Below are positions 2,085 to 57,979 of a stretch of DNA of 64,000 nt, one piece after another. Both the position numbers and the translations under genes were made by a program. Positions within the stretch are counted from its first letter, which is position 1, and every line of letters begins with the position of its first letter. The notes beneath the pieces are model-generated. The model was not told where the DNA came from. It worked only from the letters and a program-made list of their open reading frames with translations, and did not search any database. Location of the stretch: assembly GCF_010093815.1 (NCBI RefSeq), contig NW_022985561.1, forward strand, positions 438,045-502,044, given 5' to 3'. This DNA is from Pseudovirgaria hyperparasitica (lineage: Eukaryota > Ascomycota > Dothideomycetes > Acrospermales > Acrospermaceae).

Positions 2085-2977
2085 ATGGCAGATACAGTCG
2101 AACAGGCCAAACGTAAGGCCGCAGAGCAAGCGGTGAAAGAGCACTTCGACCCTGAAGCAAGATACGTTGGCATCGGAAGCGGAACGACCATACTATACGT
2201 GGTGGACGCGATCAAAGCAGCATCCACCAACCAAAATATCAAGTTTGTTCCAACTGGCTATCAATCAAAGCAAGCTGTTCTCGCCGCTGGACTCACACCA
2301 ATTGATTTCGACTCGTTGCCTACTAATCAGGTTCTGGACGTGGCATTCGATGGAGCAGATGAGGTCGACGAGGACTTGAACTGTGTCAAAGGAGGTGGAG
2401 CCTGTCTGTTTCAAGAAAAGCTGGTAGCGGAGCGAGCTAAAAAGTTTGTGTGTGTCGCTGGTACGTATATCATTTTATCTGCTTTCAGAAATATTCGAAT
2501 TAACCTAATGTTCTTGCAGACTATAGGAAGGATCAGTCACGGCTATTAACAAAGTGGCCTGCGATCCCGATTGAGGTCGCTCCCCTCGCAAGGTACACTG
2601 TCATTGCAGCTCTCAAAGCTCTCGGCAGTTCCAATCCGGTCGTACGGGATGACTACATGGCAAAAGCTGGACCGATTAGGACCGAACAATACTTCTTCAT
2701 CATCGACGCTCCATTTCCCACTCTATTGACTACAGGTGACGCCGCGAAAGACCCAAATGGAGGAGACGGTACTGATGGCAAATGGGAAGTCGGGAAGCTC
2801 AGCCGCGCCATCAAGAAAATTACTGGCGTACTAGAAGTCGGCTTATTCTGCGGCATGGATGGTGTGGAAGCCACTAGGGCTGGTTTGACCGGCGGACAGA
2901 AGCCAGTCGCAGTTTACTTTGGTTTGCAAGATGGAAGTGTCAAGGTCCGAACGACGAGGAAAGACGAAGCTGCATAG
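2085..2977 (+). CDS. RKI1: Ribose-5-phosphate isomerase A
   Basis: Interconverts ribose-5-phosphate and ribulose-5-phosphate in the non-oxidative pentose phosphate pathway. Exons 2085-2460 and 2520-2977 flank a 59-nt intron and give 277 residues, normal for RpiA. Visible motifs are the phosphate-binding loop YVGIGSGTT, the active-site segment VAFDGADEVDED, the block NCVKGGGACLFQEKLVAERA, and a C-terminal GLFCGMDGVEA. ATG 2085 is chosen because it sits in a good context (caaaATGGC) and starts the conserved part. An in-frame ATG at 1932 would add 51 residues free of acidic residues and rich in Ser, Thr and Arg, resembling a mitochondrial presequence. The gene converges with the F-box gene; the stops are 71 nt apart. 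Confidence 0.95.
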
Positions 2978-3048
2978 GTAGATCATAATCTCCTCTGATG
3001 GCAAGAAACTCCTCGGCAAAAAAGCTTTAATGCTCAAAATGGCTGCGA

Positions 3049-4329
3049 TCAGCTTTCTAGAGCATCCCTTCCATGATTCGCTTGGACGATAGCCATGAGC
3101 TTATCGAAAGCGTTTTCATCCTTCTGTTGCTGATCATCGTCCTGTGGCCTCTCCCAATAATCCACAGGCATACTACCATACTTCGTATCCCAGCAATAGT
3201 ATACCAAATGTTCTTTACTCGTAATATTATCCTGCGGAGTCTTATTTTCATCTGAGCTCTGCTCAATCACAATTTGGAAGCTTCGCAACTTTTTAGGAGC
3301 AGCTTTTGCTATAGCATCCAGAAATTCTGCCCAAGTTGGAGACTCTTCCGTATCATACCCATGCGGCTCACTACCACTGTTGATCAACTTGACTGTTTCT
3401 AAAACCTCCGACTGCGCGCATATCAGGTCCCTCAGCTCAGGACACAGCAAGACGTACTTCAGGGTCAGATGTCGAAGTTTCGGCATGATGAACGGTTGAA
3501 CTTTGAACTCTGCAAACCACCTTTCGCTGTTAGACTTTAGCCCCAAAGGTGCCTCGTTACAGCTCTCAATCTCTAGCGTCTCGATATTTATTAGATGATC
3601 GAATAGATATCGTCCATACGCTTCCGTGGTGCTGACCCAGCCAACACACGTATCCAGATTCCATCCCGCTCCGTTCTCCGCACCACGCAATGTGAATGTG
3701 AAACTTTTCAGTCCACTCAGCATTTTCTGGAAAGCAGGCGTATTCCAAGTGGACACTAGTTTTGGCACATGTTCGCGAATTTCAAGATGTCGGATCGTAT
3801 CAAACCCTGCAACGAGCTCATAGGTTCGCGCCATGAGTCTTCGCCATGCATGAATACGCTCGTCTTCAATGACTGCAGTGTCGGATTCTACGAGGTCGAA
3901 GAGATAGAATGCAGTCCGCATCTCCGCTTCGGTCCAGGTCGGTACCTCGATGATTAGGCTATCAATACCTGGTAGAAGCGACGTATTGGACAGAACCTGC
4001 TCCACAGACTCGGGGATGACGGCGTCGAGTACACTCTGATCGTCCGCGGGGTAGTTTGACTCCAGATCAACCCATTCTTGGGGGCCGGGCGCGTTGAATT
4101 TAAGATGGATGGATTTGATATGCGAGGCATAGGGGCCTTGGATGAAATCGTTTACGGCCTTCCCACTTTCCTCTGTGTTTTTCAGGGGGACCTTCGCGAA
4201 TATGAAGGGGACGAGTAGAGACCGTAGGGCTTTACAGGTACTGCTCAAATTGATATGATCTTGGAAGGAGAGGAGTTCGACAATCGAGAGCTGCAGCTCG
4301 GGAGTGATGGTAACCAGTGTTGGGGGCAT
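3049..4329 (-). CDS. F-box domain protein
   Basis: Intronless gene for a 426-residue protein. An F-box is readable at about residues 9-50 (LQLSIVELLSFQDHINLSST, then CKALRSLLVPFIF), the module that binds Skp1 in SCF ubiquitin ligases. The remainder is acidic and leucine-rich with scattered segments such as GLKSFTFTLRG, IETLEIESCNEAPLG and MPKLRHLTLKYVLL, which look like irregular leucine-rich repeats and could form a substrate-recognition surface. Such fungal F-box proteins are numerous and fast-evolving, so the substrate cannot be named. The ATG at 4329 directly precedes the F-box. Confidence 0.85.
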   Translation of the reverse strand: MPPTLVTITPELQLSIVELLSFQDHINLSSTCKALRSLLVPFIFAKVPLKNTEESGKAVNDFIQGPYASHIKSIHLKFNAPGPQEWVDLESNYPADDQSVLDAVIPESVEQVLSNTSLLPGIDSLIIEVPTWTEAEMRTAFYLFDLVESDTAVIEDERIHAWRRLMARTYELVAGFDTIRHLEIREHVPKLVSTWNTPAFQKMLSGLKSFTFTLRGAENGAGWNLDTCVGWVSTTEAYGRYLFDHLINIETLEIESCNEAPLGLKSNSERWFAEFKVQPFIMPKLRHLTLKYVLLCPELRDLICAQSEVLETVKLINSGSEPHGYDTEESPTWAEFLDAIAKAAPKKLRSFQIVIEQSSDENKTPQDNITSKEHLVYYCWDTKYGSMPVDYWERPQDDDQQQKDENAFDKLMAIVQANHGRDALES

Positions 4330-5949
4330 CGTTCTGTGTCAGACTTGTGTTGTCGATACATGGCACTGGTATTCTAGTAGTGGGGGGTTGACATCCTTAT
4401 GCAGAATGAGCTACTCTGGGCCTTGATGGCATAGGCAGCATCTGCAAAGCGCGACGCGAATTTCAGCCAATGACAGCTACGTATTTGATGGAACTTTGCG
4501 TGTAATATTAGTACCGAGGTAAGGCTTAGTCTGTCATGATAAGCGCAGGCAGCAACCTGACCACGAGCGAACGCTAAAACGTGAACATCTTCTTGTCGGC
4601 ACGGCTCATCCTGCAGCAGACATCAAAACAAGATTGTCAGTCACCGCTGAACATTATGCCTAGGCGTTCACGAACTAGTTCCTTGTACAGTCAAGGCGCA
4701 GACATGAAGTAGAAAGGGGGAGCCGTTTGAAGTCACCCTAACGATACATAGTCTTCCTCGTTGCATCTAGAATATTCAGAGGAATATCAACGGAGTCTGA
4801 TCAGAACAGGACGCTACGTAAATATCTCGGAGTCCTCTGGACCTGACGTGAAAATATTGGGAGTCTCATATGTTGTTTTAGCCCACAGGAAAACTGTAAA
4901 AGCACGGTACCATCAAACATTAGATTCAAAATACGGAAGTCTATTGTCCGGCATGGGCAACGAGATGCCCAGAAAGCCTCGACGAAGAACCGCTCTGCAA
5001 GAGGTAAGCCAGTTTCAATGGAGAGTAGTATTAGAGACAGTATTTCAAGTGGCTGCTGAAGCTGATGCATTGGGCTGGCATTGTGGCTCAAGCAAGAGGC
5101 CCATCAACGAAATTATTGTGAAAACTCCGCTGCAAGCAAAGTCTGGATCATTTTAGGTCATCACGCGAGACGGAAAGACTGCTCTAATGAGCGCTTGGAC
5201 TATTACTTGATGCCGGAACTGACTAGAACGCACTGAATCACTTGACTGCTGTCTCTATCGCTTGTTCAGATGGTAGTTACCAGTAGCTTTTTCAGACAGG
5301 TAATGTGGTCAATGTTCATCGAAACCCGCCAGGATGGCTCCTCATACAGGCATACAGACAATGCGAAGATAGTCCTATGAACCAACGTGTTTTCAACTGC
5401 CATATCTGATTTTGCTGGAGACAAGGTGGTATAGATAAAGTAAATGGGGACCGGAAAGAGCAATGACGGAAGGAAAAATTGGGACGCAAAGAGTAAAGCC
5501 AGCTTGGTACGTACCAGAAAGGAGATATGGTCTCAACCAGACTTCGTATAATCGAAACTTCAGTGCTATCTCGCCTCAAAGTTCTTATCCAGCCAACTCA
5601 AGACTTTGGAAACCGAGAAAATTCCAAAGACGTCTTCTGAGGATGATTGAAGGCAATTGCATACACTTCTTAATTCTCCCACCCAACACTTATGTCTTAT
5701 TTATGCTCGTGTCAGAGAGGATATCCACATACGTATGACTGCCATTGATCTCATTTGTATTCATGGAAGAGGCCCCACCATACAGACCCAGCCAACTTCA
5801 GAGCATCTTTCACAAATCGGTCTAACATGTAGACCCATGGTCAGGCTCTACTTCGTTGAGCCACCCTCTGGTTGACCATAGGTGTACCATGAGAGTTACG
5901 GCTACTTCGTCAACTATTTTATACCACTTCAATGCCATGGAAGGATAAC
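4330..5949. other. Intergenic, no supported gene
   Basis: No reading frame here is convincing. The longest open stretch (4761-5156, plus strand) opens at TTG rather than ATG, and an unrelated frame of similar length overlaps it on the other strand. The 5' part should hold the promoter of the F-box gene. Confidence 0.5.
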
Positions 5950-6565
5950 CTACGCCACAATTCCCTGCGCAAGCTGTATCGCCGCCCCAGTAAGCTCTTT
6001 CGGTAACTCAGAACGATAGCCGCCGTTGAGATACACTTCCTCGAAATGCAGATCGATGATAGCAATGGTGCGAAGCTCGCTTATAGAGAGCGCACTCTCG
6101 ACTGCCTTTGACGCTGGAACCTTTCGATCGAAGCGGAATGTCATGAACGCCTCCTGGATCGTGCTGTGGCGACCATATCCAGTCTTGATGATATTGTAAC
6201 CCACGAAGTCGGACTCGCTGATCCAGCTATCTATGTCGTTTGGTATAAGTATGTAGACATTCGCGAGAGCACGATTGGTTACCAAATACGAGTATATAAT
6301 GTAGGAGTCTGATCAGATAATTGAGTTTATGAATTCTATGCTGATCCGTCCTCAGGACATTGTTACTGAGATGGGTCGTTATGGTCGAGATATCTTGCAG
6401 GACTTGTTGCCAGCGTGGATCGTGCTTGAGGCGTTGGGAACCGGGTACTCTGTTTATGGCGTGAAGGTCTATGGCTGTGAGGATATCTCTGATGAGAGCG
6501 AGAATGGTCTTGAGCTGGATGTCTGCTGCGGCGATGGCGCTGAGGTTTGAAGTGTCAAACTCCAT
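5950..6565 (-). CDS. Hypothetical protein, two exons
   Basis: Not recognised. Two open frames join cleanly through a 52-nt intron (6231-6282; donor GTAACC, acceptor CATAG), giving about 187 residues from the ATG at 6565. The junction reads HYILVF then DSWISESDFVGY. The N-terminal half is rich in Leu and Ile and probably helical (ILALIRDILTAIDLHAINRV, LNYLIRLLHYILVF). The C-terminal half looks like an alpha/beta fold (GRHSTIQEAFMTFRFDR, ELRTIAIIDLHFEEVYLNGG). There is no signal peptide or clear membrane segment. The match of frame, length and splice sites supports a real gene; function is unknown. Confidence 0.5.
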
Positions 6566-38240: not shown

Positions 38241-39088
38241 TTACAGGGCGATGGCGGCGAGCACGACGGCTGCTACGGCACCCATGCCAGCGGTGACCTT
38301 TCCAGCCGCACCGGTGGGAGCGGGAAGGGGAGTGTACACGGGGGTTGAGACAGAGGTGTACAAGCTGGTGGGCACACCAACTGGGCCGGTGGGCTGAATG
38401 ATGGTCGGGGCGGGGCCGTTTCCGGTAGGAGCCCACCAAGTGGTAGGGAAGGGGGCGTTGGAGGAGACAGTAGCACTGCACGGCACAGTAGTGTACTCGA
38501 CAGACGGCTCAACAGTGGGCTCCGCGGATGGCTCGACATACGAATCGACATACGACTCAGGGACGGGCTCGACGGGTGAAGGAGTAGGAGCGTCGCTTGC
38601 AGAGCTGAGCGTGATGGTTGCAGGAGCGTCTGGGAAGGTGAAGCCGAACTGGGTAGAGTATTGGAAGATGCGCGGGTCGGACTCATCGACGAGCTGAATG
38701 CCGTAGCCGGAGCCAACGGTGGGAACAAGCTTGGGGAACTGCGCGAGTGTGGGCGTCCAGATGAAGGAGCCGGTGTTCGGCGCGGAGATGGCGATGGGCG
38801 AGTCTTGAAGCACGCAGTTGGTGGACTGACCGATGCAGAGCCAGAGCGTTACCGGGCCAGGCGAGCTGGGCTGCCAGGTGATGGTGAACGCCTTGTTGAG
38901 GGTGACTTGCTGGTCGGTTGTTAGTGGATATGTACAGGGTGGTTCGCGCAGGAGCAACATACCTCAGCGAGTTCCGGGTGGCCGATGGAGTTGCCATTGG
39001 GAACGTCGCCAACAGCGTGAACCTGGGCGCTGGCAATGGCAGCAAGGCCAGAGACGAAGAAAGCAGCAATTGAAGTCTTGGAGAACAT
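38241..39088 (-). CDS. GPI-anchored, Ser/Thr-rich cell-surface protein of the Kre9/Knh1-like family
   Basis: Exons 39088-38963 and 38909-38241 with a 53-nt intron give 264 residues. Signal peptide at 1-21 (FSKTSIAAFFVSGLAAIASA). A beta-rich domain follows (NKAFTITWQPSSPGPVTLWL; GSGYGIQLVDESD), matching the yeast Kre9/Knh1-type N-terminal domain found in many fungal GPI proteins. Then comes a Pro/Ser/Thr/Glu-rich stalk with repeated SYVEPS/TVEPSVE motifs and probable O-glycosylation. A C-terminal hydrophobic tail (GAVAAVVLAAIAL) after a small-residue stretch suits GPI attachment. Acts at the cell wall or plasma membrane; exact role unknown. Confidence 0.88.
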
Positions 39089-42049: not shown

Positions 42050-43543
42050 TCAACGCGCTGGCGGAGGCTCTTCACTCTCCTCCACATAGCCCAGCTCCCG
42101 GAACAGCTTCTCTGCGCCAAACGCCTCTACGTACGCAACCTCCTCGTCGTCCGTCATCCGCTCCAGCTCTGTTAGTTCCTGATTGTGCCAGACGAAATGG
42201 CAGTCCTGCTCCTTGTTCTGCCCACACAACGGCTCCATGTCGCGCATGCTACCCGCCATCTGCGCCACAAACTGGTCCTCGCCGCCATACCCAGTGTGCT
42301 TCCAGAACGAGGGGCCTGAAATCATCGTCCCAAGCATCGTGCTGTTGAACGCAAAGGCCCCATAGTCAAGCGAAAACTTGCGCTGCCACGGCGAGTCGGT
42401 GCCGGTGACGACGCCGTCGTCGATGGTCGGTTTTTCCCAGTCCCCTGCGCGCAGGTTGCCGACCGGAAACACCCCAACGCGAACGAGCTTAGTCATGAGC
42501 GTCAGGAGTTCCGGGAGGATCTTGTTGTCGTCGTCGAGGCCGTAGACGGGACCGTGCCCAAGCAGACCGCGTGGCTGCGGACGGCTAAGAGAATATGCAA
42601 CCTGGAGGACGGCGTTCTTCTGCGCATTCCCATACGCTTTGGTCAGACCGTACGCAAAGTATACGTATGGCACGCCAGCGCGACGCAGCGTCTGCGAGAC
42701 GATGGGATCGATGTCTGTGTCATCCTCGGCCACGATCCAGATAACTTGGAACCCTGTCTTTTGCGCTGCCTTGGCTTCTTTATCCATCCACGCACGGAGC
42801 GCACGTCCGTGCCGCCGAAAGTACTGTTGTCTCTGCGGCCCTGACTTTCCATTTGGCGAAGTTGCCGTCGTCATGTAAATGGTGGGCTTTCTCAATTCCA
42901 GCGATCCGAGTGACCAGGTCATCATATCGGGAAGGTTGTGGAGCGACCGGCGTAATAGCTTTAACGCCTGTGCTTTGTCCAAGTGCTGCTGCGCACAGTA
43001 CATGTCCAGAATTGTCTGACGCATAAATTCATTCACGTCCGCCTGATTTTTTCCTGGCCATATGTGCTTTTGAAGCGGTCTTGCTGGTATGAACGAGTAG
43101 GCGGCTGAAGGCTCGTAGAGCTTGGGAGCCATGGTGCAATTGCAGATTACGCATATGTCGGCCGGCACGGCGGCTTGGAGGTCCAATGGGAACATGCCAG
43201 GCTCTGCTATCAGTGCATCGTACATGGGAGCGAATGCCCCGTCGTATGAGGTTGTGTAAGGTAAAGGACTGGAGGCGGCGTGGAAGGTCCCGTATACAAC
43301 GAGGAAGAGGGCCGCAACCGCAATAATGATGGTGGATGAGCGCGACCGCATACTCTGTGACCTATACCAATGTGACGATTGCCCTGCCCATTCATGTAAT
43401 TGTGAATATGCAGTATGATGTGATTGTTCCATCTCCAGCGAGGCGCGAGGAGGCTTGACCACATCGCCGTGGACGTCATCGTGTTGTTGGTCCCCATCGT
43501 CGAAGGTGCTGACTTCCGCCTTCATGACTGGCTCTCGTTCCAT
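42050..43543 (-). CDS. Family GT43 glycosyltransferase (glucuronyltransferase-like), type II membrane protein
   Basis: Single exon, 497 residues from the ATG at 43543; the frame extends 31 codons upstream but begins with GTG, not ATG. A Ser/Arg-rich cytosolic tail is followed by a signal anchor at about 69-90 (STIIIAVAALFLVVYGTFHA), then a lumenal stem with CVICNCTM. Catalytic landmarks of GT43 are all present: TGFQVIWIVAEDDTD, a GNAQKNAVLQ helix, the metal-binding GLDDDNKILPEL (the DDD motif), PVGNLRAGDWEKP, FSLDYGAFAFNSTML, the GGED acid in HTGYGGEDQF, MEPLCGQNKEQDC and HFVWHNQE. In animals GT43 adds glucuronic acid to proteoglycan linkers and in plants it acts on xylan; I recall it as uncommon in fungi. 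Expected in the Golgi. Divergent from the epimerase-fusion gene. Confidence 0.85.
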   Translation of the reverse strand: MEREPVMKAEVSTFDDGDQQHDDVHGDVVKPPRASLEMEQSHHTAYSQLHEWAGQSSHWYRSQSMRSRSSTIIIAVAALFLVVYGTFHAASSPLPYTTSYDGAFAPMYDALIAEPGMFPLDLQAAVPADICVICNCTMAPKLYEPSAAYSFIPARPLQKHIWPGKNQADVNEFMRQTILDMYCAQQHLDKAQALKLLRRSLHNLPDMMTWSLGSLELRKPTIYMTTATSPNGKSGPQRQQYFRRHGRALRAWMDKEAKAAQKTGFQVIWIVAEDDTDIDPIVSQTLRRAGVPYVYFAYGLTKAYGNAQKNAVLQVAYSLSRPQPRGLLGHGPVYGLDDDNKILPELLTLMTKLVRVGVFPVGNLRAGDWEKPTIDDGVVTGTDSPWQRKFSLDYGAFAFNSTMLGTMISGPSFWKHTGYGGEDQFVAQMAGSMRDMEPLCGQNKEQDCHFVWHNQELTELERMTDDEEVAYVEAFGAEKLFRELGYVEESEEPPPAR

Positions 43544-45271
43544 ATCGAGCCGTGCGCTGTCGAAAGCTGTCGGATGGTGAAGGAAAGATGGTTGAGGAAA
43601 GGGCAGTCCAGTACTCTTAAATTTCGCTTTCTGCACTCGTCGTCTCTTTCTGCGGCCGATTCAACAAAGTTAGCGGCACCTGTACTCTGGCGCGCGGTAA
43701 GGCATCTCAGGACGGGATTGTGGGGGTAAGACGACAGCGCATGCAAAAGTTGGGGAGATTGAGAGATTGGAATGATGAAAAGTGGCAGGAGTGAAAGAAG
43801 TCCAAGTTGGAGGGGAGTGTGGTAAGGCAGTCAGGCTTATCAGTCGAGCTGATGAATGCGTAGTAAGAAAGGTACGAAGGCTGCTGATGCCCCCACAGCA
43901 AGGGTGAAGGGTGAAGCATCACATAAAATGACAGACACTAGGTCCACATTCAGAAAGAAATAGAGGGGTCAGTGATCGAGACGCTCAATTTAGGGCTAAA
44001 TCAGCCGACGATCCGACGCCTCCTGCACCCACAGCAGAGTCCAGAGCTTGAAGATGAAAGCCATCTGAGTCCTGGTGCCCCCTATTCGTAATTCCGTATC
44101 CTGTCATACCGTTGTGTTATAACAGCGATCTCTCGAAGAAGACTCGAAGAAGGCATGTCTGCTTAGAGTCTCGTCGAGAGGGCCAGCCAACCCTAATGTT
44201 TCGTCGACTCATGCCGACTTGATGCAAGGTAATACACATAAGCCTCCGGCAGGGGGAGCATATCCATCCAGTAAGATAAGCTGAAGCGCAGCGGCTGTAT
44301 TCTATTGTACCAATCAGTGTATCCTGCAGCAACTGTCATCCGCCATCCAGTATCCAGCATCCAGCATGGAGGTGGCACCTAAGTAGTTGCGGCGCAGTGT
44401 GCAACGCTCGATATGTCAAGAAGATGTTTCGTTGTTCGTAGCAGGTGTACGACGAGGCCTGATGGAGAGAAACTCTCTGTATTACTACTATCGGGCATGA
44501 GGTGGGAACAGTGGATTGATTTGTGGACGTTCCGGACGCCAACTTGAATCGATGTGTCCAGTCAGCATCTATTATTATTCCATCTATCCAAGTGGCGATT
44601 TCCGCAGGTTGCAGGTCTCGTAGAACCCCTGGAAACGGACAGGGAGAGCGGCCAACTATCAAGGGGCTGTTTCGTTCTCTGCAAAATTGAATGAGACTCA
44701 AAAGCTCAAGAGCAGCTCATATATATAATTTTTTGGCTTGCGGTGCGTGCGGGTGCAGCAATATAGTAGTAGAAGCCAAGTCACCCATTAGTAGAGGAGG
44801 ATTTCTCGGAACAGGGAGGCACCTAGCTATTCAGGCCCAGTCCACTAGCTGGAGAGCAGAGAGAGACAGCCGCGCTAGGTCTGGTTGGCTGCCCGTCCAC
44901 ATCCATCTCCTCATCTGGCTCCCCTAAACTTTCCCCCTATCGTTCTCGTGACTTGATCTTCATCTTCACTTTTTCATCCGTTGCACTCATTCTCTGTCTC
45001 ACCCACCTCCTCTCTTTTTGCCTTGCCGCATTCTCACTTCGTTGCAGTCCTTTGACGAGTACATCGCCAATCCTCCCGGCGTGTCTCTTCTACCTTGGCT
45101 GTCCGGAAAATCCTCCACGCCTGTAATCCTTCGCTTTCTTCGCCAACAGCTTCTTACGCGCCTTTCTCTACTGCGCCTGTATCCTCATCCTCCCTCTGAA
45201 CACACTATCTACAAAGCTTCCCGATCGCCTCACTTACGCTCCATACTAAGATTCTCTATACTGGGAATAAA
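43544..45271. promoter_or_regulatory. Shared upstream region of the GT43 gene and the epimerase fusion
   Basis: 1.7 kb between two divergently read genes. No frame inside is credible. The 330 nt before the epimerase ATG (about 44930-45260) are strongly pyrimidine-rich on the plus strand, a pattern common before start sites of well-expressed fungal genes. A run of CCAGTAT/CCAGCAT units stands at 44345-44368. Confidence 0.5.
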
Positions 45272-47563
45272 ATGTCCACTATGATGATTGGCCACCGGCG
45301 GATACAGATACGAGCGGTCCTATTCGTTGCAGTCATCTTCGTTCTGATCCTCATTTTCACGGCCTCGTCCACGGGCCTCCACAACCGCTTTCCTCCCTTC
45401 AGACCTCATATTCCATCAACAAGCGAGACCACCAAATCACCGAATTCCTCAACCGATCCCACATTCGATCATACCTATGACAATATTGACAAAGCACCCG
45501 CCTCGGGTGAGAAGGCTCACGACCCATGTGTCCAAGTAGCTCTGAAGGATGGCGGGACTTCACCACAAAAAACTGATGGAACATGGGTGCTTGTCACTGG
45601 AGGAGCTGGCTTCATCGGTTCAAATCTGGTGGACCGACTGCTCGATCTTGGTTACAAAGTCCGTGTGTTTGACAGTCTCTACACCGGCTTCCTACGCAAT
45701 GTTCCTCTGGACGACAATCGCATTGAGTTTGTCTTTGGTGACATTATGGATCCAAAAGCGTTGGAGCGGGCTGTCAAGGGAGTAGACTACGTCTATCATT
45801 TGGCTGCCATGTCCAAGGTAGTACCCTCGCTCAAAAACCCTGAAATGGCTCGTTTCTGCGTTGAGGTGAATGCGCTCGGAACCTGGAATGTTCTCAATGC
45901 CGTTCGTGCAAAGGGTGATATCAAGAAGGTCATCTACGCTGCTTCTTCCACCTACTACGGCAACAACAAGCCTCCCCATAGCGAGGAACAAGCTCCCGAC
46001 TTCCTCACTCCTTATGCTGCTAGTAAATACGAGGGAGAACTCCAAATGCAGATGTTTGATCGTCTGTTCTCCGTACAGACCATTTCGACACGCTTCTTCA
46101 TGGTTTACGGTCCTCGCCAGCCCAGCACCGGCGCTTATGCCATTGTCACTGGTGTTTTCGCGAAGCAGGCAGCCGACGGCAAGCAACTGACCATCGAGGG
46201 CGATGGTTCCCACTACAGAGACTTTATCCACGTTTCGGACATTGTAAACGGTCTGATCTTGTCTCAGCAATCCCAGGATCTGCACGGCAACGTGGTCAAT
46301 CTTGGCACTGGAACGGCCTTTTCTGTTCAAGATGTTGCCGATCTTGTGTCCAAAGACCAGGTCCACATAGATGGTCGCAAGAATGATCTGGAGGGCACTC
46401 TTGCTGATACCTGCAGGATGAAACAACTCCTTAACTACAAGGCGAAGATGGACTTTACAAAAGAAATGAGCTATATGGTCAAGGAGACAATGGAAGGTAA
46501 CGTTTTCATGCAAAAATGGCTTACGCCGCTTCACGCACTCTCAGCCCCGCATCTCCTTGCTCCTGGGACCCCAGTTTTCAAGTGGCCCAAGGTTCAGAAC
46601 GATCTGGATGAACTTATTTCATCCTTGGGCAACATCGACACTGCCTCTGACAATGTTGAACGTAGCATCACCGTCATCCCGTTCAGCCTAGAGAAGAACG
46701 ATTCCTGGCTCTTCGGCGATATGCTTCTCAATACCATCCATTCTTTGGTACGTTTTGGTGGTGTCACCCAATACATCGTTGCACCGACAGACAAGGCTGC
46801 GCTAGAGCTTTGTATCGAGCTCAATGTTCCTACCTACGACGCTCAGACGGTCAACCCAGCCGACCTTCTTCATACGCTACTTGGTCTCAACTTCAATGTT
46901 CACTTTGCTCAGCTCGGAAATTCGTATGTCAGTCCCGTGCAGACATTTGTACAGGAAGCATCCAGTAAGAACGGCAATGCCGATCTCATCCAGGCCACTC
47001 CATTTGGCGATGTCTTCGTTCGTGCCAACGAAAACTCTCGCACCGCGAGCGCAGCTTGGTCCCAACAGAAGCCATCATTACCTGCTAATGATATTTTCGT
47101 TCCTGCGACATGGCCCGAAAGCCTTACTTTGAAACGCGCAAAGTTCGAAGTGTCTACTCTCTGTAAGGGTAGCCTTGGGAAGGGATCTGCCACAAATACG
47201 AACGACCAAAAGGCGAAGGCCTCCGAGGAGGCCTTACATCCGAGCGCTGCATACGCTGCTGAAGCTCAACCAACCTCGGGTCTCTTCCAAGGCAAAGCCA
47301 GCCCCGAAAAGCGTGCAGCACCTGCTAAGGCACCTACCGGCCTTTGCGACAGTTCTCGCTTCTACGTCCCGGCCAGCTGCTCGACCACAAATACCAAATT
47401 TACCAACGCTGAGGCCAAAACCATCAAGGAGGCTCTTTCGAACGTTGAACTCTGGCACATGACCGAGTGTGAGGACAAAGAGCACTGCGACCGCCAGCAG
47501 ACGGTACCATTCCGCTGGGTTCAAAGTAAGCCCGACCTGGCTGCTACTGGCGGTCTGTGCTGA
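45272..47563 (+). CDS. Membrane-anchored NAD-dependent sugar-nucleotide epimerase/dehydratase fused to a glycosyltransferase-like C-terminal domain
   Basis: Intronless, 763 residues. A signal anchor lies at about 13-33 (IRAVLFVAVIFVLILIFTAS), followed by a Ser/Thr/Pro-rich stem, so the protein is type II with its domains in the lumen. Residues about 104-420 are an extended short-chain dehydrogenase: NAD-binding VTGGAGFIGSNLVDRLLDLG, FGDIMDP, YHLAAMSKV, IYAASSTYYGN, catalytic TPYAASKYEGE (YxxxK), TRFFMVYGPRQ and GDGSHYRDFIHVSD. It most resembles UDP-glucose/UDP-glucuronate 4-epimerases and UDP-xylose synthases. Residues about 465-620 (WLFGDMLLNTIHSLVRFGGV, LELCIELNVPTYDA, LLGLNFNVHFAQLG) look like a nucleotide-diphospho-sugar transferase fold of GT77 type, but no DxD is visible where it is expected. 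A Lys/Ala-rich linker and a Cys-containing end (CEDKEHCDRQ) follow. Confidence 0.83.
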   Translation: MSTMMIGHRRIQIRAVLFVAVIFVLILIFTASSTGLHNRFPPFRPHIPSTSETTKSPNSSTDPTFDHTYDNIDKAPASGEKAHDPCVQVALKDGGTSPQKTDGTWVLVTGGAGFIGSNLVDRLLDLGYKVRVFDSLYTGFLRNVPLDDNRIEFVFGDIMDPKALERAVKGVDYVYHLAAMSKVVPSLKNPEMARFCVEVNALGTWNVLNAVRAKGDIKKVIYAASSTYYGNNKPPHSEEQAPDFLTPYAASKYEGELQMQMFDRLFSVQTISTRFFMVYGPRQPSTGAYAIVTGVFAKQAADGKQLTIEGDGSHYRDFIHVSDIVNGLILSQQSQDLHGNVVNLGTGTAFSVQDVADLVSKDQVHIDGRKNDLEGTLADTCRMKQLLNYKAKMDFTKEMSYMVKETMEGNVFMQKWLTPLHALSAPHLLAPGTPVFKWPKVQNDLDELISSLGNIDTASDNVERSITVIPFSLEKNDSWLFGDMLLNTIHSLVRFGGVTQYIVAPTDKAALELCIELNVPTYDAQTVNPADLLHTLLGLNFNVHFAQLGNSYVSPVQTFVQEASSKNGNADLIQATPFGDVFVRANENSRTASAAWSQQKPSLPANDIFVPATWPESLTLKRAKFEVSTLCKGSLGKGSATNTNDQKAKASEEALHPSAAYAAEAQPTSGLFQGKASPEKRAAPAKAPTGLCDSSRFYVPASCSTTNTKFTNAEAKTIKEALSNVELWHMTECEDKEHCDRQQTVPFRWVQSKPDLAATGGLC

Positions 47564-48251
47564 GCGTTTCCGAACAATGTTTCATGAGCAACGCCAGGGG
47601 CAGAGGATGATATTGCAGTGATGAAGAGGAAGCGCGAGAGTTCCTGAAATCTTTCAAAATGGCGCTACATACTTCTGATCAAGTCGGGCAAGTCGGGCAT
47701 TTTGAGGTGCAACCCTGGTACAGGACGAGGCGTTATCTCAGGCGTAGGCGTGGACATACACTTCCGTTATTATTATTTTGTCGTGTGAAATCTCCCCCAT
47801 TACGTCAGTGTGCCTTTGGAGATTTCCGTCGATTCATAGCGCTTCTAGACCTGCCTTTAAAACTCGAGGTGGGTCTCGGATGAGAGGGAGAGGAATGTGT
47901 GATCCCGCGCGGATCATGGAAGAGGGCTTTTTTTGTAAAGCTGCTCGTTGTATAATATTCTTCTAGTCTGCCGGACTGTCACGCTTTCCTTATACCGTAT
48001 TTTTTTGGGCATTCCCAGGTGGGGATTCATATGAGCTCTCCAAAAATGGCTACGACCGTAACACTATGATCATATAATCATTTGCATGAACTTCTTTGTG
48101 TCTTGGTGCAAAATTGGGCTGGCTGATGTATTTCACCCTATATATAGTTATATATATAGTTCAAGTAAAGTAAGAGTAAAAAGAGTACGATGAAATAGAG
48201 TTTTGTATCAGAACGGGCCACGGCTACGATAAATGACTCAAAATTGCAAAA
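47564..48251. other. Intergenic, 3' side of the epimerase fusion
   Basis: No gene seen. AT-rich near 48130-48180 with TATATATAG repeats, just downstream of the tRNA on its strand. Confidence 0.5.
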
Positions 48252-48346
48252 CGACAAGGGCAGGACTCGAACCTGCGCTCCCGAAGGAATGTGATGCCGG
48301 ATAGGAATATTCGAGTCACACGCGTTAACCACTCCGCCACCTTGCC
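48252..48346 (-). tRNA. tRNA-Ser(CGA) with an intron
   Basis: Read on the minus strand from 48346. Acceptor stem GGCAAGG pairs with CCTTGTC (one G-U); discriminator G. D arm GCG-GAGTGGTTAA-CGC, anticodon stem TGTGA/TCACA, anticodon CGA in the loop CTCGAA. A long variable arm (TCCTTCGGGA) marks a serine-type tRNA, and the T arm is GCAGG-TTCGAAC-CTGC. About 14 nt (TATTCCTATCCGGC) sit one base 3' of the anticodon, the standard place for a nuclear tRNA intron. Box B is GGTTCGAAC. A T-rich stretch follows within 100 nt. Confidence 0.95.
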
Positions 48347-48957
48347 ATAGATTGATAGAATATCCCGACAGTTGACTTATCACAGACTAATCTGGGGGAA
48401 CAAGTGCGGCCTCAGGATGCGGCTTCTTTTTGTTCTGGTGGGGCACTATCACTGGACGGATGAATGAAAGTGGGGGCATTTGGCAGGTATCATTCAGGTA
48501 TTCTATAAATGTGACTACAGTAAGTAAACATGTGTCATGCTTTATTATAGTTCTCAGAGGACCTAATCATACCAATCTATAACCTCCATGGCCCCCAATA
48601 CCTACCGCAAATCAGAATCAATCAATCAATCAATCATAGCAAAAGAAGTGATCAAGACCTCTCTACTTCAGAACGCAGCAGAAAGCCAATTACTTTTCAT
48701 TGTTTCAATTTGTAACATGATCATCATGTGAGGTAGCTAGTCTATCTATATGCGACTTTTTTTTCTCAATTCTACTTTGCTACCAACCGAAGCAGCAAGC
48801 CGTCAGAACATGTTTTCGAAGTGCACGAACGTAGCCGTGGACCTGGTGGGATTCATGGGATGGGATGCAGTGGGATGATAACATCATGTCCGAGCTCCAC
48901 ATTTCCCCCCACCCCTTCTCGTCCCTCGGCTCCCTCCCAAAAGAAAAATGCGCATTT
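48347..48957. other. Intergenic, with a short AATC repeat
   Basis: No gene seen. Five head-to-tail AATC units occupy about 48615-48636. The right end is the 3' flank of the RidA gene. Confidence 0.5.
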
Positions 48958-56672: not shown

Positions 56673-57979
56673 ATGGTATCAAGGTTGTTGTCTACGCTCG
56701 CTGTGGCGCTTTTTGCGTCTTCCAGCATAGCCGCTCCGTGAGTTGATCACCAGCCACATGAATGTCTTCCATACTGATGCTTAGATCTAGAACCGAGAAA
56801 CGTCAAGGTTCGTTGAAATTCGACTATAACAATCAGAAAGTTCGAGGTGTAAACCTCGGCGGCTGGTTTGTGCTTGAGCCATGGATCACGCCATCTATGT
56901 TCAACGACTGGGCAGATGGCAACAGTGTGAAAGACGAATACACTCTAACCCGGACCTTGGGCTACGACGAGGCATACCGACGTCTCAGCGCGCATTGGAA
57001 CTCGTGGATCACTCAGGACGACTTCAGCCAAATCGCAAAAGCAGGCCTGAATCACGTGAGGATACCAATTGGCTACTGGGCCGTGCAGAAACAGGATGGA
57101 GACCCATACGTGCAGGGTGCCTATCAGAAGCTTGGTGAAGCTCTCGACTGGGCGCAAGCTGCAGGCCTCAAGGTTATGATTGACCTCCACGGTGCTCCTG
57201 AATCGCAGAATGGCTTCGACAACAGCGGTCGCTTGGGCGCTATCGGCTGGACTCAAGGAAACACTATTGCAACCACCATCAGCGTACTGAACAAGATTCG
57301 AGATGATCACGCTAATCATCCCGCCGTTTCTGCCATCGAACTCCTCAACGAGCCCCTTGGCCCAAATCTGAACATGGACACAGTCCGCCAATTCTACATG
57401 GACGGATGGGGTAATCTCAGAGATAACAATGTGGCCATCACCTTCCACGATGCCTTCCAAGGGGTGACATCCTGGGGCAACTGGGGTTCCGGCATGTGGA
57501 ATCTTTTGCTTGACACTCACCACTACGAGATTTTCGACCAAAGCCAAGTCTCCATGGACCCAAACGCTCACATCGCAACTGCCTGTGACTTTGGCAGACA
57601 GATGGCAAGCACCGGAAAGTGGACCATCGCTGGTGAATTCACCGGCGGTATCACCGACTGTGCAAAGTGGCTCAACGGACTTGGAAAGGGTGCTCGTTAC
57701 GACGGTACCTTGGCCGGATCGTCGCATGTCGGCTCGTGTGATGGAAAGTACACAGGAACCGTCGCCGGGCTCAGCAACGACGACAAGTACAACATCGGAC
57801 GGTTCATCGAGGCTCAACTGGACGCGTACGAGAAGGCCACGGGCTGGATATTCTGGACGTGGAAGACGGAGAGTGCACCAGAGTGGGACATGCAAGATCT
57901 CCTTGCAAACGGACTATTCCCGCAGCCCTTGACTGCCCGAAAGTGTAAGCTGCATCCCATCAATCATTCCCAACCATAA
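56673..57979 (+). CDS. EXG1: Secreted exo-beta-1,3-glucanase, glycoside hydrolase family 5
   Basis: Removes glucose from the non-reducing ends of beta-1,3-glucan; acts in the wall. Exons 56673-56737 and 56785-57979 give 419 residues. Signal peptide at 1-20 (LLSTLAVALFASSSIAAP) and a dibasic Kex2 site at residue 28 (SRTEKRQ). GH5_9 landmarks: RGVNLGGWFVLEPWITPSMF, GLNHVRIPIGYWAVQ, the acid/base in ELLNEPLGPN, HHYEIFDQ, and the nucleophile in WTIAGEFTGGITDC. The loop reads DLHGAPESQNGFDNSGR; most homologues have Gly where this has Glu. The C-terminus is uncertain: the frame ends at 57979 after TARKCKLHPINHSQP, but a GTAAGC donor right after TARK suggests a last intron, as family members usually end with a short YPxQCG-like tail that I could not find. 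Confidence 0.92.

Follow-up and report, generated by a model that had tools for sequence, protein, structure and literature searches.

In a 64,000-nucleotide stretch of the genome of the filamentous ascomycete Pseudovirgaria hyperparasitica (positions 438,045 to 502,044 of contig NW_022985561.1, the whole of which is called the window below), a gene for a GT43-family glycosyltransferase on the minus strand stands back to back with the plus-strand gene of a protein with a short-chain dehydrogenase/reductase (SDR) domain, each gene being one uninterrupted frame. It is tentatively proposed that the two products are enzymes of the Golgi lumen that help to build an acidic glycan of this fungus; a chance neighbourhood of the two genes is about as likely as a functional pair. 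GT43 is a known family, to which the protein described here adds a new and divergent member; the SDR protein is a new variant in that it carries an anchor and an unmatched C-terminal region. The pair offers a promising start for a deletion study and is no discovery in itself. The literature search, in which titles and the starts of abstracts were listed and some queries had further hits, returned no description of this gene pair.

42050 to 43543, minus strand: GT43-family glycosyltransferase gene, 497 amino acids from the first ATG (PF03360, E 8.6e-20).
43544 to 45271, no strand: shared upstream region between both start codons, G+C 0.505.
45272 to 47563, plus strand: gene of the 763-amino-acid SDR protein, with a hydrophobic anchor, an extended-SDR epimerase-type domain and a C-terminal region.

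A preliminary description of this DNA had recognised a divergent pair of a GT43 gene and a membrane-anchored SDR gene with 1.7 kb of common upstream DNA. Both points are borne out, the first by the frames, the Pfam matches (PF03360 and PF01370) and hydropathy, and the second by a distance from start codon to start codon of 1,728 bp. Membrane anchors were called by Kyte-Doolittle hydropathy, which gave one cluster of strongly hydrophobic windows per protein, at about residues 69-90 in the GT43 protein and 11-31 in the SDR protein, with Arg/His shortly before. Because each protein has a single N-terminal hydrophobic stretch preceded by basic residues, both are predicted to be type II membrane proteins, which fits what had been claimed of them. 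Animal GT43 glucuronosyltransferases are type II membrane proteins as well, and the anchor predicted here is comparable to theirs.

Animals use GT43 enzymes to add glucuronic acid (GlcA), and in plants the family contributes to the making of xylan; we know of no role of it in ascomycetes. The parts of the protein from P. hyperparasitica are as follows.

42182 to 42748, minus strand: the GT43 domain itself, covering positions 10-204 of the 207 in the Pfam model.
42524 to 42535, minus strand: DDDN nucleotide/metal motif, residues 337-340 counted from the ATG (motif 4 in Table 2 of PMC4449007).
43274 to 43339, minus strand: GT43 hydrophobic anchor, residues 69-90, called from hydropathy only, with a tail of about 68 residues before it.

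The frame extends open to a GTG at 43636, and the first ATG, at 43543, is the likelier start for a fungus. The protein passes the Pfam model at 71.9 bits (gathering cut-off 27), and it is the only match to PF03360 in its own genome, where the searches covered 35.0 Mb in 59 contigs. The four PDB matches at E 1 (2d0j, 1fgg, 1v82 and 3cu0; best E 1.4e-10) are all glucuronosyltransferases, and these solved relatives are beta-1,3-glucuronosyltransferases. PDB alignments, read against the positions in Table 2 of PMC4449007, place Glu281, Trp307 and His308 of human GlcAT-I among the retained residues. Such features suggest that the product is likely to be a working transferase, with uridine diphosphate (UDP)-GlcA as a possible donor.

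Table 1 of PMC3652786, a survey of 103 fungi, has GT43 in three Basidiomycota and in no Ascomycota, and PMC4449007 reports no further ones from some 400 fungal genomes. Environmental Sporothrix, which are ascomycetes, were however reported with GT43 (PMC9281073), so that an ascomycete GT43 is uncommon yet not unprecedented. The placing of the host among the filamentous ascomycetes agrees with its ribosomal protein L3, of which a 225-residue stretch reaches 449.6, 449.6 and 443.8 bits against the L3 of 8oo0 and 7olc (both Chaetomium) and 7r81 (Neurospora crassa), and no more than 401.5 bits against the remaining 49 sequences listed; this comparison sets filamentous ascomycetes apart from yeasts, no basidiomycete having been identified among the 52 sequences.

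The SDR protein has three parts, as follows.

45302 to 45364, plus strand: SDR hydrophobic anchor, residues 11-31, called from hydropathy only.
45587 to 46471, plus strand: extended-SDR domain, with GGAGFIG at 110-116, S225-S226-T227, Y248xxxK252 and RFFMVYGPRQ.
46490 to 47560, plus strand: C-terminal 357 residues, with a mixed alpha/beta part at about 478-596 (low-confidence model), followed by a linker rich in Ala and Lys and a tail that contains Cys.

PF01370 matches residues 106-345 with 171 bits against a cut-off of 20.9 (E 3.7e-50), and the domain fills about 300 of the 763 residues; what had been described as a dehydrogenase domain is a sugar-nucleotide SDR, but is better called an extended-SDR epimerase-type domain. 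The PDB alignment, on which the residue numbers were counted, shows the NAD-binding glycines G110, G113 and G116 and the pair Y248/K252 intact, and S225-S226-T227 stands at the catalytic Ser/Thr site. Among the best 60 of 141 PDB matches the first places are held by 6wjb and 6wj9 (171.8 and 168.7 bits), which we take to be a UDP-GlcNAcA C4-epimerase, followed by 8rdg, 6dnt, 6pmh and 4zrm (UDP-glucose 4-epimerase) and then by WbgU and WbpP (131-132 bits), with MoeE5 (107 bits) and the UDP-glucuronate decarboxylases (94-95 bits) lower down.

The closest sequences found to the domain are cyanophage nucleotide-sugar epimerases (41.2% identity over 96%; phrog_540, E 2.8e-71), for which we know of no established function. 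A tblastn search with the SDR domain returned 349 phage and 1,839 plasmid records, and scans of viral contigs with both proteins and of prokaryote contigs with the SDR domain confirmed no relative, the exact 8-residue patterns used reaching close relatives only. A 24-row tree was built from the SDR protein, 17 of the 140 match rows of the searches (among which some places recur), three genes of E. coli K-12, with ArnA trimmed to the C-terminal part, and three of the 13 other PF01370 places in the fungus's own genome, where 15 of 57 candidates were scored and at least 15 matches found. The tree is no more than a sketch, since the rows were picked for labels and spread; TviC is represented by one row (L036) beside tviB, scoring 497 against a cut-off of 760, and GAE by one unlabelled row (L039) on a long branch, which we call GAE-like from the motif RFFTVYGP-WGRPDM. 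The SDR protein was placed with the two cyanophage epimerases at a support of 83/87, a grouping that is suggestive and not firm. The SDR protein lacks the Asp-Glu seen in the RmlB/RHM rows, and the approximately unbiased (AU) test rejects a grouping with these rows (p 0.0056). From these comparisons the protein is concluded to be of the C4-epimerase type as judged by its sequence, with more than one candidate substrate, as the AU tests do not reject several groupings, given below.

The argument for a joint role draws on what surrounds other nucleotide-sugar genes of this genome. PF03721 has eight matches there, which fall at three loci with genes resembling UDP-glucose dehydrogenase (UGDH), called C2, C20 and C27. 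The C2 frame matches UDP-glucose 6-dehydrogenases in the PDB (E 3.3e-31), additional dehydrogenase domains are present at all three loci, and it is plausible that these genes could supply UDP-GlcA, though the product of each may be UDP-GlcA or UDP-GlcNAcA. A GT2- or GT4-type gene lies within about 2.5 kb of the UGDH-like gene at each of the three.

C20:366400-376300: GT4-type (group 1) transferase gene at 2112-3578 within it, minus strand, and UGDH-like gene at 4324-6328, plus strand, divergent and 745 bp apart.
C2:2164500-2174400 and C27:156700-166600: at each, a UGDH-like gene with GT2-type neighbours at about 2.2-2.3 kb.

Nine of the 22 frames of at least 170 amino acids at these loci were scanned, three of the nine being the UGDH frames themselves. 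PF00535 was found in at least seven places and PF00534 in at least six (13 together) in 35 Mb, counts that are lower bounds since the GT2 gene at C27 is missing from the PF00535 list. With so few places, chance is unlikely to account for all three neighbourhoods, and their recurrence makes a functional link within the GT43/SDR pair more plausible.

The two genes may nevertheless, and with comparable tentativeness, be chance neighbours that encode ordinary Golgi or secretory proteins of unrelated pathways and use two separate promoters in the gap between them. The gap is long (1,728 bp), the third-position G+C differs between the genes (0.67 for GT43 and 0.56 for SDR), and five further loci for nucleotide-sugar enzymes (RHM-like at two, UGE-like at two and GMD-like at one) showed no transferase in the 15 scanned frames of 23 of at least 190 amino acids. 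Three of the unscanned frames are those of the sugar enzymes, and a transferase that is small or split by introns could escape such scans. Pairing with a transferase is thus not the rule for epimerase-type genes in this genome. Against chance stand the adjacency of the genome's one PF03360 match to a sugar-nucleotide enzyme of the same predicted topology, and the recurring arrangement at the UGDH-like loci.

The silence of these five loci is one of several results that weigh against the proposed joint role. Hydropathy is the sole ground on which the two proteins would be placed in the Golgi. On the side of the transferase, two of the eight strict GT43 motif patterns of PMC4449007 are matched (DDDN and WIVAED, the latter motif 2 of its Table 2, at residues 269-274), short of the stricter cut of at least three used there; the fungal rows in Table 1 of the same paper have 0-4 strict motifs and are still counted as GT43-like by E-value. 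Moreover, the equivalents of Tyr84, Arg161 and Arg310 of human GlcAT-I are changed to Ser, Lys and Gln, and UDP-GlcA is for that reason not assured as the donor. On the side of the SDR protein, Met277 has no counterpart in the other 23 rows of the alignment, of which 20 carry Asn at that place, two Cys and one Thr, so the active site may depart from the usual. No equivalog cut-off was reached among the 25 NCBIfam families listed: the top score was to the 4,6-dehydratase model LegB (144.5 against 475), and TviC (124 against 760) and GalE (123.1 against 262.3) were likewise below their cut-offs. Finally, the AU tests left standing the groupings with GalE (p 0.058), with the TviC-like row (0.084), with the GAE-like row (0.216) and with UDP-xylose synthase (UXS) together with ArnA (0.187).

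The last of these groupings bears on another reading, in which the SDR protein would make the GT43 enzyme's own donor, UDP-xylose, by decarboxylation of UDP-GlcA, for a xylose-containing glycan. The human UXS is an SDR anchored in the membrane as a type II protein, and the SDR gene of the pair tops the matches to a UXS query in its own genome. That query, a bacterial one run with no fungal positive control, had three matches, namely the SDR protein (5.8e-20, at merely 35% identity) and two RHM-like loci; a canonical UDP-xylose synthase was thus not detected in this genome. The UXS entries in the PDB lie far under the epimerases (95.2 against 171.8 bits, among the best 60 of 141), and the AU test rejects a grouping with the three labelled UXS rows alone (p 0.005). 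Plant GT43 enzymes, for their part, are tied to xylan (PMC4449007). UDP-GlcA decarboxylases have Glu where a UDP-GlcA epimerase has Ser128 (PMC7984243), and in the alignment of 24 rows the three rows with a UXS label all read TSE there, as does ArnA, whereas the SDR protein has S-S-T. Since the decarboxylase Glu is missing, the grouping with the UXS rows alone is rejected and the UXS query finds no closer UXS in the genome, UDP-xylose is disfavoured and this reading is highly improbable.

The suggestion that the pair serves a xylose-containing glycan is accordingly rejected as the main reading. Of the two donors named in the preliminary description, which are those of animal (UDP-GlcA) and plant (UDP-xylose) GT43 enzymes, UDP-GlcA stays plausible through the three UGDH-like loci, while UDP-xylose is disfavoured. 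By donor class, the AU tests separate the SDR protein from UXS alone and not from UXS with ArnA. UDP-GlcA itself is predicted in most ascomycete lineages, inconsistently in Dothideomycetes, and UDP-galacturonic acid (UDP-GalA) and UDP-xylose sparsely, according to PMC8092308. PMC7874066 reports that Histoplasma lacks GlcA and xylose in its surface glycans and has neither a UGD1 nor a UXS1 orthologue, which indicates that glycans with these sugars are not general in ascomycetes.

The SDR protein could also be a fungal counterpart of GAE, the UDP-GlcA 4-epimerase of the plant Golgi, making UDP-GalA in the Golgi for use by the GT43 protein or by some other transferase. Plant GAE has an anchor-plus-SDR layout that matches the one predicted here, and its signature is RFFTVYGP-WGRPDM. 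The RFFxVYGP of the SDR protein resembles that of the GAE-like row L039, a grouping with which the AU test does not reject, and UGDH-like genes are present in the genome. A Ser occupies the place of the carboxylate-binding Ser127 in a UDP-GlcA epimerase from bacteria (PMC7984243), the position being assigned by way of the catalytic Tyr-Gly stretch as that enzyme stands outside the alignment. The SDR protein lacks, however, the WGRPDM found in the GAE-like row and has RFFMVYGPRQPSTGAY instead, its RQPSTGAY stretch being closer to what the phage and TviC-like rows show. MoeE5 (6kv9), a UDP-GlcA epimerase according to PMC7984243, reaches 107 bits against 172 for 6wjb, and the sparse prediction of UDP-GalA in Ascomycetes (PMC8092308) adds to these points, making this explanation unlikely.

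In the proposal of two cooperating Golgi enzymes, the GT43 protein would probably transfer glucuronic acid, or the residue of another UDP-hexuronate, from its UDP donor by way of the DDDN metal motif. The anchored SDR would probably carry out an NAD-dependent C4 epimerisation of a UDP-sugar, by oxidation at C4 and reduction from the opposite face, and so yield a sugar of galacto configuration in the compartment where the GT43 protein works. C4-epimerases convert UDP-GlcA to UDP-GalA, UDP-Glc to UDP-Gal and UDP-GlcNAc to UDP-GalNAc, and animal GT43 enzymes add GlcA onto galactose. In one version, the SDR might supply UDP-Gal or UDP-GalNAc for the acceptor, which the GT43 protein would then cap with GlcA. 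A dedicated system of a donor enzyme and its transferase had been suggested for the pair. The general idea gains from the donor-transferase neighbours at all three UGDH-like loci, but its simple form does not hold, because a C4-epimerase makes no known GT43 donor and, acting on UDP-GlcA, would consume one; a module in which the SDR provides a galacto-sugar and the GT43 protein adds a residue of its own fits better. The Golgi location, the activities and substrates of the pair, a pathway common to both proteins and whatever function the C-terminal region has are inferred.

This C-terminal region of 357 residues had no significant match in Pfam, the PDB (best E 0.48), PHROGs or its own genome, and no plasmid or phage match at E 1. 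Pfam fragment scans gave sub-threshold matches only, and exact 8-residue patterns, which reach close relatives only, found no relative in prokaryote contigs. Two runs of AlphaFold2 without an alignment gave a mean predicted local distance difference test score of 39.2 and 37.5, and Foldseek returned nothing at E 0.001 or better for the first model. The region belongs to the protein, given the continuous frame and a codon usage similar to that of the SDR half (cosine 0.88) and of other nearby genes (0.63 to 0.87). One could imagine that it is a degenerate GT-A-like pseudo-transferase that scaffolds or feeds the GT43 enzyme, in a Golgi complex that would epimerise a UDP-sugar on site and make an acidic glycan not known from ascomycetes. 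The sole basis for this idea is a presumed resemblance of residues 470-600 to Nucleotid_trans-type domains; with Pfam, the PDB and the two structure predictions lending no support, it is very unlikely.

Elsewhere in the window, a Kre9/KNH-domain protein (38241-38960) and a GH5-family (Cellulase) protein (56762-57979) are encoded less than 10 kb from the pair, and both are possibly wall-related. At 48251-48347 there is a tRNA gene to which ARAGORN, under the bacterial code, assigns a four-base anticodon; perhaps the tRNA contains an intron and was read without it. At one of the RHM-like loci (C7:619800-629700), the dehydratase gene is near a topoisomerase II gene and frames with WSC and peroxidase domains.

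Should the GT43 and SDR proteins work together, two deletable genes would lead to an acidic glycan, and the pair would explain one use of the UDP-glucuronic acid that is predicted in most ascomycete lineages (PMC8092308). The recurrent neighbours of nucleotide-sugar-dehydrogenase and transferase genes in this genome suggest, in addition, a practical route to fungal glycan pathways.

When set beside animal GT43 enzymes (1v82, 2d0j, 1fgg), the fungal protein shares the GT43 domain, the DDDN, a WIVAED-type motif and the Trp-His near the domain end, and is unlike them in its two of eight strict motifs, the three changed residues and the long N-terminal tail and stem. The genera Rhodotorula/Rhodosporidium, Puccinia and Melampsora are, we take it, all Basidiomycota. 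They make up the fungal GT43 listed in Table 1 of PMC4449007, and the protein described here is like those entries in matching few strict motifs (0-4 there, 2 here) and unlike them in that its host is an ascomycete. The SDR protein agrees with TviC, WbpP, WbgU and GalE in its catalytic Ser-Ser and its YxxxK and, with the TviC-like row in particular, in an RQ-GAY stretch, and departs from them in Met277 for Asn and in the added anchor and C-terminal region. With the epimerases of Synechococcus phage S-SKS1 and Prochlorococcus phage P-SSM2 (L027 and L028) it has a shortened C-terminal lobe in common, whereas the phage proteins, of about 300 amino acids, are without anchor or C-terminal region.

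For the gene arrangement, the nearest precedents are the two-gene clusters UGD-GT1 and UNGD-CHSL, which occur in ascomycetes (PMC4059230). The former is found, in the account of that paper, in many Eurotiomycetes and Sordariomycetes and in one Dothideomycete only, and UGD of A. fumigatus is essential for an acidic glycolipid. The divergent C20 pair resembles UGD-GT1, and the GT2 and UGDH-like neighbours at C2 and C27 recall UNGD-CHSL. The GT43/SDR pair is like both clusters in that a nucleotide-sugar enzyme gene adjoins a glycosyltransferase gene, and differs from them in having other enzyme families on both sides.

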